Of a stretch of DNA of 64,000 bases, positions 13,377 through 63,228 are shown one piece after another. This stretch comes from Hymenobacter sp. 15J16-1T3B (GTDB lineage Bacteria; Bacteroidota; Bacteroidia; Cytophagales; Hymenobacteraceae). The stretch is from the NCBI RefSeq assembly GCF_020711235.1, contig NZ_JAJFAV010000002.1, forward strand, positions 1-64,000. Reading direction: 5' to 3'. Position numbers and translations under genes: made by a program. The notes beneath the pieces are model-generated. The model ran no database searches, was not told where the DNA came from, and was given only the letters and a program-made list of their open reading frames with translations. Positions within the stretch are counted from its first letter, which is position 1; every line of letters begins with the position of its first letter.

Positions 13377-15800
13377 ATGGCAGTGATGACTAAACTGATG
13401 ACGCTGATGCGGACAACCTCCAAGGGCAGGAGGGTAGGAGGGCGCGAGGAAGTGAGTTGGCAAGGGAAGAAGGCTGACAAGTCGTCCTTCCAGCTCCTCA
13501 GCCCCTATAAACTCCTAAACGCTTACCCCCATACCCTCTTACCCTGCATCCTCCTGCTGGCCGGCTGCAGCGGCACGCGCTTCGTGCCCGAAAACGACAA
13601 GCTGTACACCGGCTCGGCGGTGAAAGTGACCTCGCCCTACAAGGTTCCGAACGAAACGGCGCTGACCACGGAGCTGGAATCGGTGATTACGCCCAAGCCC
13701 AACGCCTCCATTCTCGGGCTGCGGCCCAAGCTCTACTTCTGGCACATGGGCGAGGGCAAAACCAAGGGCCTGGGCAAATGGATAGCCGACAAATACGGCG
13801 AGGCCCCGGTGCTGCTCAGCCAGGTCGACACCCAGAAGGTGAAAAACCTGATGCTCAACCGCCTCTACAACAACGGCTTCTTTGCCGGGCCGGTGGTGCA
13901 AAGCAAGGTGACGGCCAAGGGCCGGGCGGCCACCGTCGACTACACGGCCAAGGTGCAAAAGGCCTACACCATCAAGGAAATCCACTTTCCGGACCGCGAC
14001 ACGCTCATCGACAACGACATCCGCAAGGCCCAGGCCGGCTCGCTGCTCAAAGTCGGCGACCCGTACAACCTCAACGTCCTCATTGCCGAGCGCACCCGCA
14101 TCGACAACGCGCTGAAGCAGACGGGCTACTACTACTTTGCCCCCGATTACCTGCTCTACGAAGTCGACAGCACCGAGCACAACACCGTGGACGTGTACCT
14201 GCGCGTGAAGGGCAGCATTCCCAAGCGCGCCGCCAAGCCCTACGTGCTCAACCGCGTGACCCTGAACACGCGCTTCGGCCTGACCGACACCACCGAGTCC
14301 ATCAAGCCCATCCTCTACCAGAAGTACCGCTACGTCCCCGACGAGAAGGTGTTCAAAGCCAGGGCCATTACCCGCGCCACCTTTCTCTACCCCGACTCCC
14401 TTTACCGCCGCCGGCGCCAAGACCAGACGCTGAGCCGCCTGATGAGCCTGGGCACGTTCAAGTTCGTCGACATTCAGTTTCGGCCGGCCCGGCAGAAGCC
14501 CGACTCGGCTGGTTACGGCTTCCTGAACGCGCAGGTGCGCATGACCCAGCTCAAGCGAAAGTCGTGGCGCAGCGAGTTGCAGTGGGTCACCAAAACCAAC
14601 GGCTTCTCCGGACCAGGCTTCACGGTGCAGTTTCGCAACCGCTCGGCCCTGCGCGGGGCCGAGCAGCTGCTGGTGAACCTGAACGGGGCCTTTGAGACGC
14701 GGCAGGTGGGCCGGGGGCAAACCGACGCCGCCAGCGGCACCGCGCTGGGCGTCACCTCGTACGAGCTAGGCATCAACGCGCAGCTGCTGGTCCCGCGCTT
14801 CATCGCGCCCTTCGACATCAAGCTGCGCGAGTCGGACTTTCAGCCGCGCACCACCTTCGGGGCGGGCTACCGCTACGTAGGGCGACGCGGGCTGTTTCAG
14901 GAGGATTTCTTCAACCTGAACTACGGCTACAGCTGGAAAACCAAGATTACCAACGAGCACACCTTCAAGCCCATCGACCTGCAGTTCGTGCGCCTGGGCA
15001 GCCGCACCGATGCCTTTGACCGCCTGCTGGACGACAAGCCTTTCCTGCGGACCTCCTTCCTGCAGCAGTTCATCCCGGCTACGTCGTACCTCTACACTTA
15101 CAACACGCAGATGTACGAGCAGCGGCGCAACCAAGTGTACTTTACGGGCGGCATCGAGTTGGCCGGCAATCTGGCCAGCCTATTCGGCCAAAGCGGCGGC
15201 ACGGGGAAGCCGGATGAAATCTTCGGGCAGGCTTTTTCGCAGTACACCAAAGTAGACCTGGAGTTTCGCAACTACTTCCGGGTGAGCCAGGACCCGCGCA
15301 GCGGCAACAAGATTGCCACCCGCGTGCTGGTGGGCCTGGGCATGCCCTACGGCAATTCGTCCATCATGCCCTACCTGAAACAGTACGGCTCGGGCGGCCC
15401 CAACAGCGTGCGGGCTTTTGCCGCCCGCGAGCTGGGCCCCGGCACCTACAAGCCAGTCGACCAAACCCAGACGGCCGCCAATTTCTACGACCAGGTGGGC
15501 GACTTGCGCTTCGAGGCCAACGCGGAATACCGCCAGGATTTGATTCCCTACGTGAAGGGCGCCCTCTTCATCGATGCCGGCAACGTGTGGCTGGTGAAGG
15601 AAGACCCCGACCGGCCGGGCAGTAAGTTCGAGGCCAAATCCTTTCTGCAGCAACTGGGCGTGGGGGCCGGCGCCGGCCTGCGCATCGATGTGCAGTTCCT
15701 CGTCATCCGCCTCGACGCGGCCTACCCCCTGCGCGCCCCCTACGGCACCCCGCTCAGTCAGTCGCCCCGCCTGAACCTGGCCATCGGTTACCCCTTCTAA
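13377..15800 (+). CDS. TamA/BamA-family outer-membrane protein with lipoprotein signal
   Basis: An 807-residue protein with POTRA-like N-terminal domains and a C-terminal 16-stranded Omp85 barrel (about residues 440-807; strand-like ends and a final GYPF aromatic terminus). A lipobox LLAGC (Cys about residue 64) follows a short hydrophobic run, so the mature protein is probably a lipid-anchored Omp85 protein, a known Bacteroidota variant. It lies 8 bases after the TamB-like gene, supporting a Tam-like pair. Oddity: the 63 residues before the lipobox are much longer than a normal signal peptide and are encoded by the octad-phased inverted repeat at about 13425-13558, so the true start is uncertain. 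Options are ATG 13377, ATG 13407 or GTG 13452; only the hydrophobic segment and lipobox are secure. Confidence 0.87.
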   Translation: MAVMTKLMTLMRTTSKGRRVGGREEVSWQGKKADKSSFQLLSPYKLLNAYPHTLLPCILLLAGCSGTRFVPENDKLYTGSAVKVTSPYKVPNETALTTELESVITPKPNASILGLRPKLYFWHMGEGKTKGLGKWIADKYGEAPVLLSQVDTQKVKNLMLNRLYNNGFFAGPVVQSKVTAKGRAATVDYTAKVQKAYTIKEIHFPDRDTLIDNDIRKAQAGSLLKVGDPYNLNVLIAERTRIDNALKQTGYYYFAPDYLLYEVDSTEHNTVDVYLRVKGSIPKRAAKPYVLNRVTLNTRFGLTDTTESIKPILYQKYRYVPDEKVFKARAITRATFLYPDSLYRRRRQDQTLSRLMSLGTFKFVDIQFRPARQKPDSAGYGFLNAQVRMTQLKRKSWRSELQWVTKTNGFSGPGFTVQFRNRSALRGAEQLLVNLNGAFETRQVGRGQTDAASGTALGVTSYELGINAQLLVPRFIAPFDIKLRESDFQPRTTFGAGYRYVGRRGLFQEDFFNLNYGYSWKTKITNEHTFKPIDLQFVRLGSRTDAFDRLLDDKPFLRTSFLQQFIPATSYLYTYNTQMYEQRRNQVYFTGGIELAGNLASLFGQSGGTGKPDEIFGQAFSQYTKVDLEFRNYFRVSQDPRSGNKIATRVLVGLGMPYGNSSIMPYLKQYGSGGPNSVRAFAARELGPGTYKPVDQTQTAANFYDQVGDLRFEANAEYRQDLIPYVKGALFIDAGNVWLVKEDPDRPGSKFEAKSFLQQLGVGAGAGLRIDVQFLVIRLDAAYPLRAPYGTPLSQSPRLNLAIGYPF
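13425..13550. repeat. Octad-phased inverted repeat, element E (GGNNGGAG type)
   Basis: The left arm (13425-13472) reads as six consecutive 8-base units of GGNNGGAG type. The right arm (about 13503-13550) reads as six 8-base units of CCYCNTAC type, roughly its reverse complement. The best-paired segment is AGGGTAGGAGGG with the complement of CCCTCTTACCCT. The octad sequence differs from the four GTGAA elements in this window, but the 8-base period and the purine-arm-first arrangement are the same. It overlaps the 5' end of the TamA-like reading frame, and its right arm encodes part of that protein's signal peptide. Confidence 0.55.
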
Positions 15801-23444: not shown

Positions 23445-23549
23445 CGTCATGTCGAGCGCAGCCGAGACATCTCGCGTGCTGACGCCTGATAGTAACCTGA
23501 TGATTGAATTATTATCCAGCGAAATGTCTCGGCTGCGCTCGACATGACG
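23445..23549. repeat. Long inverted repeat (REP/MITE-like) between metH and metF
   Basis: Two 30-base arms, 23445-23474 and 23520-23549, are reverse complements with one mismatch (29/30), separated by 45 bases. The core is ATGTCGAGCGCAGCCGAGAC. The loop region contains a further GCCTGAT, pairing with ATCAGGC just outside the left arm (23428-23434). From memory, near-identical GTCATG...CGAGCGCAGCCGAGACAT sequences are scattered in Hymenobacter-like genomes, so this is probably a dispersed REP-type element. It has no T run, so it is not a classical terminator. Confidence 0.8.
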
Positions 23550-35407: not shown

Positions 35408-36403
35408 ATGGCTGCCAAGAAATCTACTACTCCCAAAGCCGCCCCGGCCCGCCCGGCCCCGCCCGCCGCCGACCAGCCGGCTCCGGCGCCCAAGTCCGCA
35501 ACCAAGGCGACCAAAGCCCCGGCGCCCAAGCGCGAAAAGCGCCCCACGGCCGCCCAGATGAAGGAGCACGCCCAAAAGCTGCCCTATCCGGCCAAGCAGG
35601 CCGACATGAAGCTGCAGCCCGACTCTAACCTCTCCGGTTACCTGCCCGCCGGCAAGCTCAAGGGCAAGATTGCGCTGATAACCGGCGCTGACTCGGGCAT
35701 CGGGCGGGCCGTGGCGCTGGCCTTCGCCATGGAGGGCGCCGACGTGGCCGTGCTCTACAACGAAAACGACGTGGACGCGCGCGAAACCATGCGCTTGGTG
35801 GAAGCGCAGAAACGTCGCTGCTTGCTGCTCAAGCTCGACGTGCGCGACCCGGAGCAGTGCAAGCAGGCCGTGCGCCGCACCACCAAGGAACTGGGTGGGC
35901 TGAACGTGCTCGTCAACAACGCCGCCTTCCAGATGGCGCAGGAGAAGTTCGAGGACATTCCGGAGGAGCAGATCCGCCGCACCTTCGACACCAACATCCT
36001 TGGCTACATCTGGATGGCCCAGGCCGCCATTCCGCACCTGAAGAAGGGCGACAGTATCATCTGCACCGGCAGTATCGTGGGCCTGACCGGTATTCCGCTG
36101 CTGGTGGATTACGCCTGCACCAAGTCGGCCATTCACGCCCTGGTGAAGAGCCTGGCCCAGTACCTCGGCGACAAGGGCATCCGCGTCAACTGCGTGGTGC
36201 CCGGCCCGGTGTGGACGCCCAACATTCCCGGTACCATGCCGCGGGAGGAAATCGAGAAGTTCGGCCACGAAGTCGCCCTGAAGCGTCCCGGCCAGCCCGA
36301 GGAACTGGCCCCGGCTTACGTGCTGCTGGCCTCGCAGGACGGCTCCTTCATGACCGGCTCGCTGGTGCACGTCACCGGCGGCAAACTGAGCAGCGACCAA
36401 TAG
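35408..36403 (+). CDS. SDR-family oxidoreductase with Ala/Pro/Lys-rich head
   Basis: A 331-residue short-chain dehydrogenase of the stress-associated YghA/GSP39 type. The first 50 residues are low complexity (Ala/Pro/Lys), then a typical lead-in with LPYPAKQADM. Rossmann motif TGADSGIG, NNAAFQMAQ, catalytic Ser in CTGSIVGLTG and YxxxK as YACTKSA are all present; cofactor NAD(P). It is the first gene of a same-strand row with the subunit-3-like, GMC and GH1-like genes, separated from the next by inverted repeat A. Substrate unknown; a role in oxidation of sugars or alcohols is inference from neighbours. Confidence 0.92.
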   Translation: MAAKKSTTPKAAPARPAPPAADQPAPAPKSATKATKAPAPKREKRPTAAQMKEHAQKLPYPAKQADMKLQPDSNLSGYLPAGKLKGKIALITGADSGIGRAVALAFAMEGADVAVLYNENDVDARETMRLVEAQKRRCLLLKLDVRDPEQCKQAVRRTTKELGGLNVLVNNAAFQMAQEKFEDIPEEQIRRTFDTNILGYIWMAQAAIPHLKKGDSIICTGSIVGLTGIPLLVDYACTKSAIHALVKSLAQYLGDKGIRVNCVVPGPVWTPNIPGTMPREEIEKFGHEVALKRPGQPEELAPAYVLLASQDGSFMTGSLVHVTGGKLSSDQ

Positions 36404-36487
36404 GTGAAGTTGTGAAAGGTGAAGTTGCGAAGGTCAATGGGGGCCGCGCAATGCCCATTCACAAGTTCACAAATTCACCATCTCACC
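36403..36487. repeat. Octad-phased inverted repeat, element A (GTGAA type)
   Basis: It fills the gap between the SDR stop (36403) and the next ATG (36491). The left arm 36403-36431 is made of GGTGAAGT/TGTGAAA-type units; the right arm 36458-36487 is four exact 8-base units of YTCACNNN. The arms pair with a few mismatches and one bulge. The 20-mer TTCACAAGTTCACAAATTCA of the right arm recurs exactly, in the same orientation relative to the downstream gene, in element C 14 kb away. Confidence 0.8.
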
Positions 36488-36490
36488 TTT

Positions 36491-37084
36491 ATGAAATATC
36501 CCCCTGGCACCGTACGGGCCCTGCTGGAGTCGCCCCACGTGAGCGAGGCCACCCGCGCCGCCCTGCAAGAGCGCCTCGACGCGCCGCCCTACCAGCCGCA
36601 GTTCTTCGACGCCGACACGTACCGGCTGCTCGGGGCCGTGTGCGCCCGCCTGCTGCCGCAGCCCGACCGCCCTGCGGGCGCCATCGACCTGCCCGCGGGC
36701 ATCGACGAGCGGCTGCACAGCGGCAAGGCCGACGGCTGGCGCTACGACGCGCTGCCGCCCGACCGCGAAGCCTACCGCCTCGGCCTCGGCGGCATTCAAC
36801 AGGCGGCGCAGGCGCAGTTCGGGCGGGAGTTTGCGGCCCTGGCCGCGGCCGAGCAGGACGCCGTGCTGCAAGCCGTGCAGGCCGGCACCGCCCCCGGCGA
36901 CCTGTGGCTGAAAGTCGATGCGCCGCGCTTTTTCGAGGAACTGCTGGCCGAAGCCACCATTCTGTACTACTCCCATCCGCTAGCCCAAGAGGAAATCGGC
37001 TACGTCGGCATGGCCGACCTGCCCGCTTGGACGCGCATCGGCCTCGATACGCGCGAAGACCGGGAGCCGGAGGAAGTGAACTAG
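36491..37084 (+). CDS. Gluconate 2-dehydrogenase subunit 3-like protein
   Basis: A 197-residue protein from ATG 36491; an in-frame ATG at 36419 would translate the inverted repeat and is rejected. It matches the small-subunit (subunit 3) family of membrane-bound gluconate/sorbitol dehydrogenases: FFDADTYRLLGAVCARLLPQPD near the N-terminus and FFEELLAEATILYYSHPLAQEEIGYVG near the C-terminus. Unlike classical subunit 3 it has no Tat or Sec signal, so the complex with the following GMC protein is probably cytoplasmic. The small subunit normally helps the flavoprotein fold and function. The stop lies inside the left arm of repeat B. Confidence 0.85.
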   Translation: MKYPPGTVRALLESPHVSEATRAALQERLDAPPYQPQFFDADTYRLLGAVCARLLPQPDRPAGAIDLPAGIDERLHSGKADGWRYDALPPDREAYRLGLGGIQQAAQAQFGREFAALAAAEQDAVLQAVQAGTAPGDLWLKVDAPRFFEELLAEATILYYSHPLAQEEIGYVGMADLPAWTRIGLDTREDREPEEVN

Positions 37085-37186
37085 TGAGGTGGTGGAATGG
37101 TGCGTTTGCCGTTTTGAGGGTCGCGCTGTTTCGCCATCTGCCGCTCACTGGTTCACCGTTTCACTACCTCACTAGTTCACCGACCA
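37081..37186. repeat. Octad-phased inverted repeat, element B (GTGAA/CTCAC type)
   Basis: Left arm 37081-37102 (beginning CTAGTGAGGTGG) and right arm 37154-37175 pair over 22 positions with three mismatches, and all three become G-U pairs in RNA. The right side (37144-37183) reads as five consecutive 8-base units YTCACYNN. It starts within the stop codon of the subunit-3-like gene and ends about 8 bases before the GMC start at 37194. Confidence 0.8.
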
Positions 37187-50722: not shown

Positions 50723-50817
50723 AAGGGTGAAGTTTTGAATTTGTGAACTTGTGAAGAGCGAGGCTGCGTGACGGTTGGCTGTCCATTCACAACTTCACCC
50801 TTCACCACTTCACCTTT
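50723..50817. repeat. Octad-phased inverted repeat, element C (GTGAA type)
   Basis: It fills the gap between the DUF1800 stop (50820) and the DUF1501 start (50718). On the plus strand, arm 50723-50755 consists of 8-base NGTGAANN units and arm 50786-50817 of TTCACNNN units (one is 7 bases). In the direction of transcription the GTGAA arm comes first, then the TTCAC arm just before the ATG, as in elements A and B. It shares an exact 20-mer, TTCACAAGTTCACAAATTCA, with element A. Confidence 0.8.
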
Positions 50818-50819
50818 GG

Positions 50820-59677: not shown

Positions 59678-59780
59678 GGCCAGCGTTGAGTACAGGCAAC
59701 AATGCGGGGAGAATACGCATTTTTTTCGGATTGCAAAAGTACGTAACCCGCCCGGATATATAGTTACCTTCCGCCCGAAA

Positions 59781-59862
59781 AGGTGAAATTGTGAATTTGT
59801 GAAGGGTGAGTTGTTGCTCTACACAACGTCATATTGGTAGTCACAAATCCCCAACTTTACCA
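59781..59862. repeat. Octad-phased inverted repeat, element D (GTGAA type)
   Basis: Left arm 59781-59810 contains GGTGAAAT, TGTGAATT and TGTGAAGG units; right arm 59840-59862 is their rough complement (18 of 22 aligned positions). It is more degenerate than A-C. It sits upstream of the ABC permease gene (ATG 59881) in the same orientation: GTGAA arm first, TTCAC-like arm nearer the start. Confidence 0.6.
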
Positions 59863-59880
59863 CTCCGCTCTTGACCTGCT

Positions 59881-63186: not shown

Positions 63187-63228
63187 AATACAGGAAAGGC
63201 TTGACGTACGTCAAGCCTTTCCTGTATT
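63187..63228. repeat. Perfect 42-bp palindrome between duplicated hydrolase genes
   Basis: Positions 63187-63207 are the exact reverse complement of 63208-63228 with no loop and no mismatch (half sequence AATACAGGAAAGGCTTGACG plus T). It could form a cruciform in DNA or a 19-bp RNA hairpin with a GUAC tetraloop. Only a short CCTTTCCT-type pyrimidine stretch lies in the arm and no T run follows, so it is at best an atypical terminator for copy 1. Confidence 0.95.

Follow-up and report, generated by a model that had tools for sequence, protein, structure and literature searches.

Hairpins with octad and heptad arms in Hymenobacter: sites that keep the fold and exchange the unit class

We describe in Hymenobacter and its relatives a set of hairpins with arms of degenerate tandem octads or heptads, which mostly lie behind stop codons and whose place is kept between related species while their class of unit is exchanged; of this identity, and of the positional and class pattern, we are firmly convinced. 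That the elements are inherited by place and fold and not by sequence, with resident hairpins repeatedly overwriting existing ones and leaving the flanks intact, is a possibility that we put forward with considerable reserve; if it is true, a single junction or ribozyme stem passes through many unrelated 7/8-mer classes within one genus. A site may keep its hairpin while losing its sequence, and ordinary covariation and alignment searches miss such cases. Below, the genome of Hymenobacter sp. 15J16-1T3B is called the own genome (G000), its relatives are numbered G001, G002 and so on, and loci carry L numbers.

Results

Hairpins of the window

The window, that is the whole stretch of 64,000 nucleotides that was analysed, had been described as carrying five intergenic inverted repeats with an octad step (A-E). 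With the arms scored at lag 8, this holds for A-D, the right arm of D being decayed, and fails for E, which lies in frame inside an Omp85 ORF. Gene boundaries are those of a custom codon-based finder and not of a standard program.

Element A, 36404-36487
A left arm, 36404..36432, plus strand: GTGAAGTT/GTGAAAG/GTGAAGTT/GCGAA; abuts the stop codon TAG (36401-36403)
A right arm, 36458..36487, minus strand: TTCACAAG/TTCACAAA/TTCACCAT/CTCACC; the following start codon is at 36491
Element B, 37076-37180
B left arm, 37076..37103, plus strand: the Gluconate_2-dh3 gene has its stop codon within it (TAG, 37082-37084)
B right arm, 37144..37180, minus strand: upstream of the GMC oxidoreductase gene (37194)
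Element C, 50723-50819
C left arm, 50723..50755, plus strand (window strand): the minus-strand DUF1501 gene starts next to it
C right arm, 50785..50819, minus strand: the minus-strand DUF1800 gene has its stop codon next to it
Element D, 59780-59870
D left arm, 59780..59811, plus strand: in the leader of a MacB/FtsX-type gene (start 59881), divergent pair
D right arm, 59840..59870, minus strand: decayed, with a weak fold
E left arm, 13424..13460, plus strand: unit class GGTANGAG; inside the Omp85 ORF 13377-15800
E right arm, 13508..13544, minus strand: inside the same Omp85 ORF 13377-15800

Elements A, B and C each form an inverted repeat some 85-115 nt long with an 8-base repeat in its arms and, as had been noted, occupy almost the whole gap from stop to start codon. 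The self-match of the arms at lag 8 is 0.52-0.82 in A-C, 0.57 in the left arm of D and 0.43 in its right arm, and at lags 5-7 and 9-11 it is 0.11-0.48; the RNA folding z is lowest for B (-6.6), followed by C (-3.7), A (-3.6), E (-2.7) and D (-0.9). The exact 20-mer common to A and C is indeed present, its two copies standing in opposite orientation. Of the single unit proposed for A-D, the GTGA octad is common to all four, and the units of B are closer to GTGARNT(A/G) than to GTGAANT(T/G). Two corrections concern orientation: any GTGA...TCAC inverted repeat shows its purine arm first, and its pyrimidine arm nearest the downstream gene, on either strand, so that arm order carries no orientation; and in C both genes are on the minus strand.

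Looking for a Rho-independent terminator, we found no T run longer than 3 after the arms of A-D. Likewise, no Rfam match above the gathering score falls at the elements, the one match of the window being a SAM riboswitch elsewhere (RF00162, 27384-27499, minus strand, 73.9 bits). The window also holds a perfect 42-base palindrome at 63187-63228 and, at 23445-23549, a 31-bp inverted repeat (CGTCATGTCGAGC...) similar to GTCATCCTGAGC...GAAGGACC hairpins; hairpins of the latter kind are found nested in heptad or octad arms at L236 (~12720), L246 (~4886) and L251 (~3655 and 7117).

Element E, built like A-D but from another unit, is in frame with the Omp85 ORF (807 aa) that contains it and is close to the lipoprotein signal. 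It is absent from four relatives, which have shorter sequence at that place, and the pattern of its class is present in 36/204 family genomes.

Period, unit classes and loop

In 1239 gaps of 45-450 nt taken from the loci retrieved, the number of inverted repeats that have a periodic arm peaks at lag 8 (149) and lag 7 (36) and is 2-9 at each of the lags 5, 6 and 9-13; the two peak counts include a few GC-rich or other-repeat false positives. The octad inverted repeats divide into 119 of GTGA type and 30 of other types, the loci having been chosen partly for the GTGA octad and not for the other classes. Words that recur among the non-GTGA octads and heptads include GGTANGAG, AATGGCTA, GAGTTNNN, AGCTGTT, GTTGTCA, AATTAAG and TTGAATG. 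An element is mostly ~70-130 nt long and consists of two facing arms, usually of 3-5 units each, around a variable loop; the mode is four units per arm (101/164 arms in 82 elements) with a maximum of 10 in this set, and one-sided arrays of at least 10 units occur outside it. In one genome (G030) arms stand 1.5 kb apart, a stretch that was considered as a possible autonomous element.

Within the GTGA octad the GTGA is fixed and one base is free. The loop of GTGA elements often opens ..GAYGTTCTG.., and its core CGTTCTG is present in 23/111 GTGA gaps, 6/55 gaps of other classes and 18/650 plain gaps. A common loop core was considered as proof of a single superfamily and set aside, being strong in the GTGA class and weak in the others. 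No fixed tag stands out in a logo of the element flanks. At the free positions, the two arms of one element agree at 0.730 in the relatives (72 elements) against 0.596 (sd 0.015) for arms of different elements; the corresponding values in the own genome (n=10 elements) are 0.641 and 0.662, that is, no match beyond the shared vocabulary.

Abundance in the own genome and the family

A unit-blind lag-8 scan of 464 kb, comprising the window and the following 400 kb of the same contig (C22:64001-464000, L009-L028), returned 15 places at >=15/21, six of which belong to A-E (both arms of E and a single arm of each of A-D); the remaining nine are GC-rich and coding-like by eye, with no clear element among them. 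GTGA scans of the following 400 kb gave one weak lone arm and zero pairs. Given five elements in the window and no clear octad element in the adjacent 400 kb, we conclude that the elements are clustered in the window. Across the own genome (6.3 Mb), the triple octad GTGAANNNGTGAANNNGTGAA has 64 matches and the reversed pattern 15, overlapping windows of long arrays being scored several times in this count, and for the dual-arm pattern there are 27 matches, distributed over 21 places, with 0 for the reversed control. Two contigs of the own genome, C15 (8-84) and C20 (30089-30165; L039, L040), terminate within perfect GTGAAGTG arrays, each of 10 or more units, and the assembly therefore probably broke there within a longer array.

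The preliminary description had called for a family-wide scan; the outcome is a confirmed genome-wide family, with the dual-arm control at 0 and the period-8 peak seen in the 1239 gaps. Three successive GTGARNTD units are matched 77 times in the own genome (control 16), 265 times in G002, 258 in G003, 65 in G006, 4 each in G005 and G007, and 0 in G001 and G004. Over the family, 102/204 genomes have this pattern, nearly all of them in two genera, with 0 to 510 matches per genome. The scan of named genomes gave at least 114 stretches, and among the 80 matches listed 44 are from Hymenobacter and the rest from further Bacteroidota, Acidobacteria and Rhizobiales; one G006 element is identical to one in Hymenobacter sp. 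CRA2. Facing arms of GTGA-based 7/8-mers were also observed in distant groups, namely an Acidobacteria MAG (L101, L125, L130, L131, L155), Rhizobiales (L116, L119, L172) and Spirosoma (L153).

Anchoring behind stop codons

Where co-directional gaps leave at least 25 nt of spare room, the element is nearer the stop than the start codon in 25/27 cases, and in convergent gaps an arm abuts the stop codon in 16/17 on each side; in several such gaps a separate GC-rich hairpin stands between the two arms. A check of gene orientation, suggested earlier, gave a depletion in divergent gaps (6/111 vs 150/918, p 0.001); D itself sits between a divergent pair. One element lies between two tRNA genes (L118), so that a translation stop is not needed.

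Orthologous gaps

Comparison of the gaps with those of sister genomes, likewise suggested earlier, proved informative: the A, B, C and D gaps are all occupied by an element in G003 and G002, and in A, C and D the type GTGARNT(G/A) there replaces GTGAANT(T/G). The A gap of G003 and G002 holds a perfect 29-bp inverted repeat of the other unit type, and the C gap has the GTGARNTG class in these two genomes and the AATGGCTA class in G001. The B gap has the GTGARNT(A/G) type, with other words, in the own genome, G003 and G002; its element is also present in G006 and is absent from G001, G005 and the paralogous operon of G002. Over 30 loci, the B junction resembles the exbB-exbD junction described below in its behaviour, but comprises 19 significant inverted repeats, 4 empty versions and 7 gaps failing the test, in some of which the upstream ORF extends into the left arm and so excluded that arm from the gap. 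Three genomes, G006, G005 and G001, have an almost closed version of a further gap, in the C11 region, which holds three different types in the own genome, G003 and G002, the type in G002 being the class of window element E.

The exbB-exbD junction

The junction between exbB and exbD, defined by Pfam PF01618/PF02472, has a significant inverted repeat in all eight genus members. Their hairpins fall into at least 4 clear unit classes (GTGA, AATGTG, GAGTT, GTTGTCA), and no tandem arms are obvious in the inverted repeats of G004 and G005. In the family the pair was matched in 139 genomes, from which 90 loci were read (the 30 best and 60 further): 88 gaps are of 40-200 nt (median 99), one is of 17 nt and one of 470 nt, and an inverted repeat with z>3 is present in 83/88 gaps, the median z being 11. 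Eleven classes were named at this one junction, some with one or two members, by regular expressions whose sets differ slightly between analyses and which leave 13/90 rows unclassed.

On the tree of the coding flanks (75 classed rows), a minimum of 36 class changes is required against a mean of 47.3 and a minimum of 44 in 60 shuffles. The figure of 36 can be inflated by mislabels, as when the own locus was once labelled GAGTTNNN though it is of the GTGA class. Pairs of loci share their class in 4/7 cases at a flank identity of >=95%, 31/107 at 90-95%, 63/289 at 85-90%, 168/1013 at 80-85% and 160/1359 below 80%.

A stem of RNase P RNA

In L102 and L157 the octad element is one hairpin inside a full-length RF00010 match (246 and 245 bits), the octad insert sitting between model positions 136 and 137; we take this hairpin to be P12. 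Out of 72 rnpB loci, 70 could be parsed into 47 with a long hairpin (median 85 nt, many classes) and 23 with a short one (8-20 nt), a division that is not a frequency because the loci were chosen non-randomly (two via the element, the 30 best matches, 37 for length and 3 short ones) and include the same species twice in L157/L452 and L102/L433. The long hairpins have z>3 in 46/47 cases. Heptad-like RNase P hairpins were also observed in two further genera of the family, g5 and g6 (L408, L419, L422, L426, L428, L430), where the GTGA octad pattern hardly occurs.

Among the 29 genomes with a class assigned at both sites, the exbB-exbD class is also the P12 class in 12, where 5.3 would be expected and 0/2000 shuffles reached 12, an agreement that may partly reflect shared ancestry; in the other 17 the two differ.

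Discussion

A copying mechanism and its alternatives

The explanation that we would offer as a whole, and that we regard as a near toss-up leaning slightly to the negative, is that these quasi-palindromes are kept in place, exchange their classes by copying, and persist as harmless or useful stems. Maintenance by a copying mechanism, taken by itself, is a tentative proposal that may well be wrong. Under it, the elements would be kept at the DNA level by copying and not by a transposase of their own. Replication slippage would change the unit number one unit at a time. Where a hairpin stalls replication, the nascent strand could move over to a second hairpin elsewhere in the genome, be extended along it and come back; by such template switching, or by gene conversion, the old hairpin would be overwritten by one already resident in the genome, of its own or of a different class, with the flanks left intact. 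Behind a stop codon or in P12 a hairpin would be harmless to the gene and so persist, and at exbB-exbD and in P12 a plain RNA stem is probably useful, its sequence being irrelevant.

That a conserved period with a changeable unit points to copying or slippage had been proposed from the window, and it draws support from the many 7/8 classes that share one anatomy, the gain and loss of integral units, the arrays and the class exchange. The copying mechanism is further supported by the better match between the two arms of one element in the relatives and by the own exbB-exbD element, which, with its loop, is 78-85% similar to other elements of the own genome, and the agreement of exbB-exbD and P12 classes within genomes suggests that the donors are resident. 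Against it stand element B of the window, which kept its unit type, and the arms of the own genome, which are no better matched than the vocabulary allows. A class exchange in the absence of shared sequence is hard for homology-based copying, the loop core CGTTCTG being only partly common, and template switching alone does not predict the anchoring at stop codons. No donor-recipient event was caught.

One could instead regard the elements as MITE- or REP-like non-autonomous mobile elements, moved in trans by a transposase or recombinase with a preference for gene ends or for existing hairpins, with class exchange coming about when a new family inserts into an old hairpin and the old one is then lost. 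We consider this unlikely, if well short of negligible. Copies are dispersed and patchy, the number of matches running from 0 to 510 among the species of a single genus group, the C11-region gap exists in filled and nearly closed versions, CGTTCTG is kept in the GTGA class well above plain gaps, and nested hairpins are observed, all of which would fit mobility. REP elements are linked to RAYT, and a search for the Y1 transposase, the one transposase family tested (PF01797, E <= 0.001), found no match in the own genome or in the rich genomes G006, G019, G031, G032, G047 and G067; RAYT is therefore not required. At the one near-empty site, the C11-region gap, no target-site duplication was seen by eye, and insertion would either have recurred there or been followed by class exchange. 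Selection of intercistronic RNA hairpins strikes us as improbable. In this account a long stem immediately behind the stop codon would be required at each site (for mRNA protection, attenuation or uncoupling of the gene that follows), whatever repeats it is built of, and the sequence classes would turn over while selection for the structure stays the same. It would agree with the steady length of the inverted repeats in those 83 exbB-exbD gaps, the position at stop codons, the depletion in divergent gaps and the RNase P RNA stem formed in like manner. Yet there are empty versions (4/30 at junction B and three species at the C11-region gap), 102/204 family genomes have no match, and selection for a stem leaves the tandem 7/8-mers unexplained. 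A preference for sense-strand wobble, which would also speak for RNA, is not seen in 90 co-directional elements (84 G.U vs 143 A.C) or at exbB-exbD (92 vs 110; 82/88, with 6 dropped); the test fails equally on the RNase P stem as a control (65 vs 70; 45/47 long stems, with 2 below the score limit dropped) and hence cannot decide between RNA and DNA. Both a recombinase and selection for a plain stem can coexist with copying.

The remaining accounts carry far less weight with us. MetJ and the omega-type repressors are examples of repressors that read tandem operator steps, and a protein or oligomer reading 8-bp steps, for which the elements would be binding arrays, was already envisaged in the preliminary description. 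The fixed GTGA with one free base per octad would suit such a partner, but tandem operators are very improbable: the unit class differs between orthologous sites and between the two sites of one genome in 17/29 genomes, a period of 7 exists as well, and elements occur both within rnpB and within a coding region. Low-complexity sequence arisen by chance, or slippage of the ordinary kind and nothing more, is scarcely credible, long perfect arrays notwithstanding, in the face of reversed-pattern controls at or near zero (dual-arm search, most genomes), facing arms, stop-codon anchoring and the high median inverted-repeat z at exbB-exbD.

Comparison with known systems

In cyanobacterial RNase P RNA, STRRs are located in P12. 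Their presence within cyanobacterial rnpB has reportedly been described (by Vioque, in 1997). As far as the title of that report goes, our elements resemble them in having short variable tandem units and in occurring inside rnpB. Degenerate ~7-nt tandem units in intergenic DNA, a trait of STRRs, were found here at period 7 in 36/1239 gaps and at period 8 in 149, so that the window elements may be called an octad variant of the heptad kind; a stem within a structured RNA, another such trait, is seen in the octad insert of RF00010 matches (47/70 loci, chosen partly by length).

The preliminary description knew of no described family of this build. Heptad hairpins are in fact known (PMC4476775, PMC4692102), whereas the relevant passages of those papers contain neither a period of 8 nor the class number and turnover measured here. 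In the P6b stem of the Nostoc tRNA-Leu (UAA) trnL intron, according to the passages concerned, degenerate heptads form one of two classes, Class I TDNGATT or Class II NNTGAGT, and replacement of the whole region has been inferred (PMC4476775). Shared with Nostoc P6b are arms of degenerate tandem units, the replacement of a class at a fixed site with the hairpin kept, and a varying unit number; judged by the same passages, Hymenobacter differs in that period 8 is the commonest, 11 classes occur at one junction, many sites exist per genome, the elements are mostly behind stop codons and the host belongs to Bacteroidota.

Xanthomonas has inverted pairs of GGGAATC heptads which, in the part of the account concerned, are likewise intergenic inverted tandem units at a fixed position with varying length and sequence, and few in divergent gaps (7-8% in Xanthomonas); unlike the Hymenobacter set they have one unit class, of G-quadruplex type, with no class exchange reported in that part (PMC4692102). 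The TAACTGA heptads of Beggiatoaceae, Cyanobacteria and five Bacteroidetes are, in the excerpt concerned, tandem units near gene starts or ends with stops in every frame and a patchy distribution, but they are direct repeats, almost never inverted, and of a single sequence (PMC4679880). REP elements, as characterized in the section concerned (PMC3733652), are GTAG- and CGTC-tagged palindromes that resemble our elements in being intergenic and in many copies and differ in the absence of tandem 8-mer arms. The own Hymenobacter genome has no Y1_Tnp match. Assignment to REP of the RAYT type was accordingly rejected, since in place of a tagged palindrome of 20-40 bp there are elements of ~70-130 nt with octad arms and no fixed tag.

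Among the top-ranking matches in the open-licence literature we found no matching description of a Hymenobacter repeat of this build, and a hairpin-directed copying process was not found described as such in the literature searched. What goes beyond the known systems is the period of 8, the number of classes, the anchoring at stop codons and the measured turnover. An old puzzle on bacterial repeats becomes testable because the place is kept and the words are exchanged between related species: the Hymenobacter group has more than 100 sequenced species and two natural assays, the exbB-exbD junction and the RNase P RNA stem, in which cyanobacterial STRRs, the replacement in Nostoc P6b and the heptad pairs of Xanthomonas could be brought together as one measurable process.
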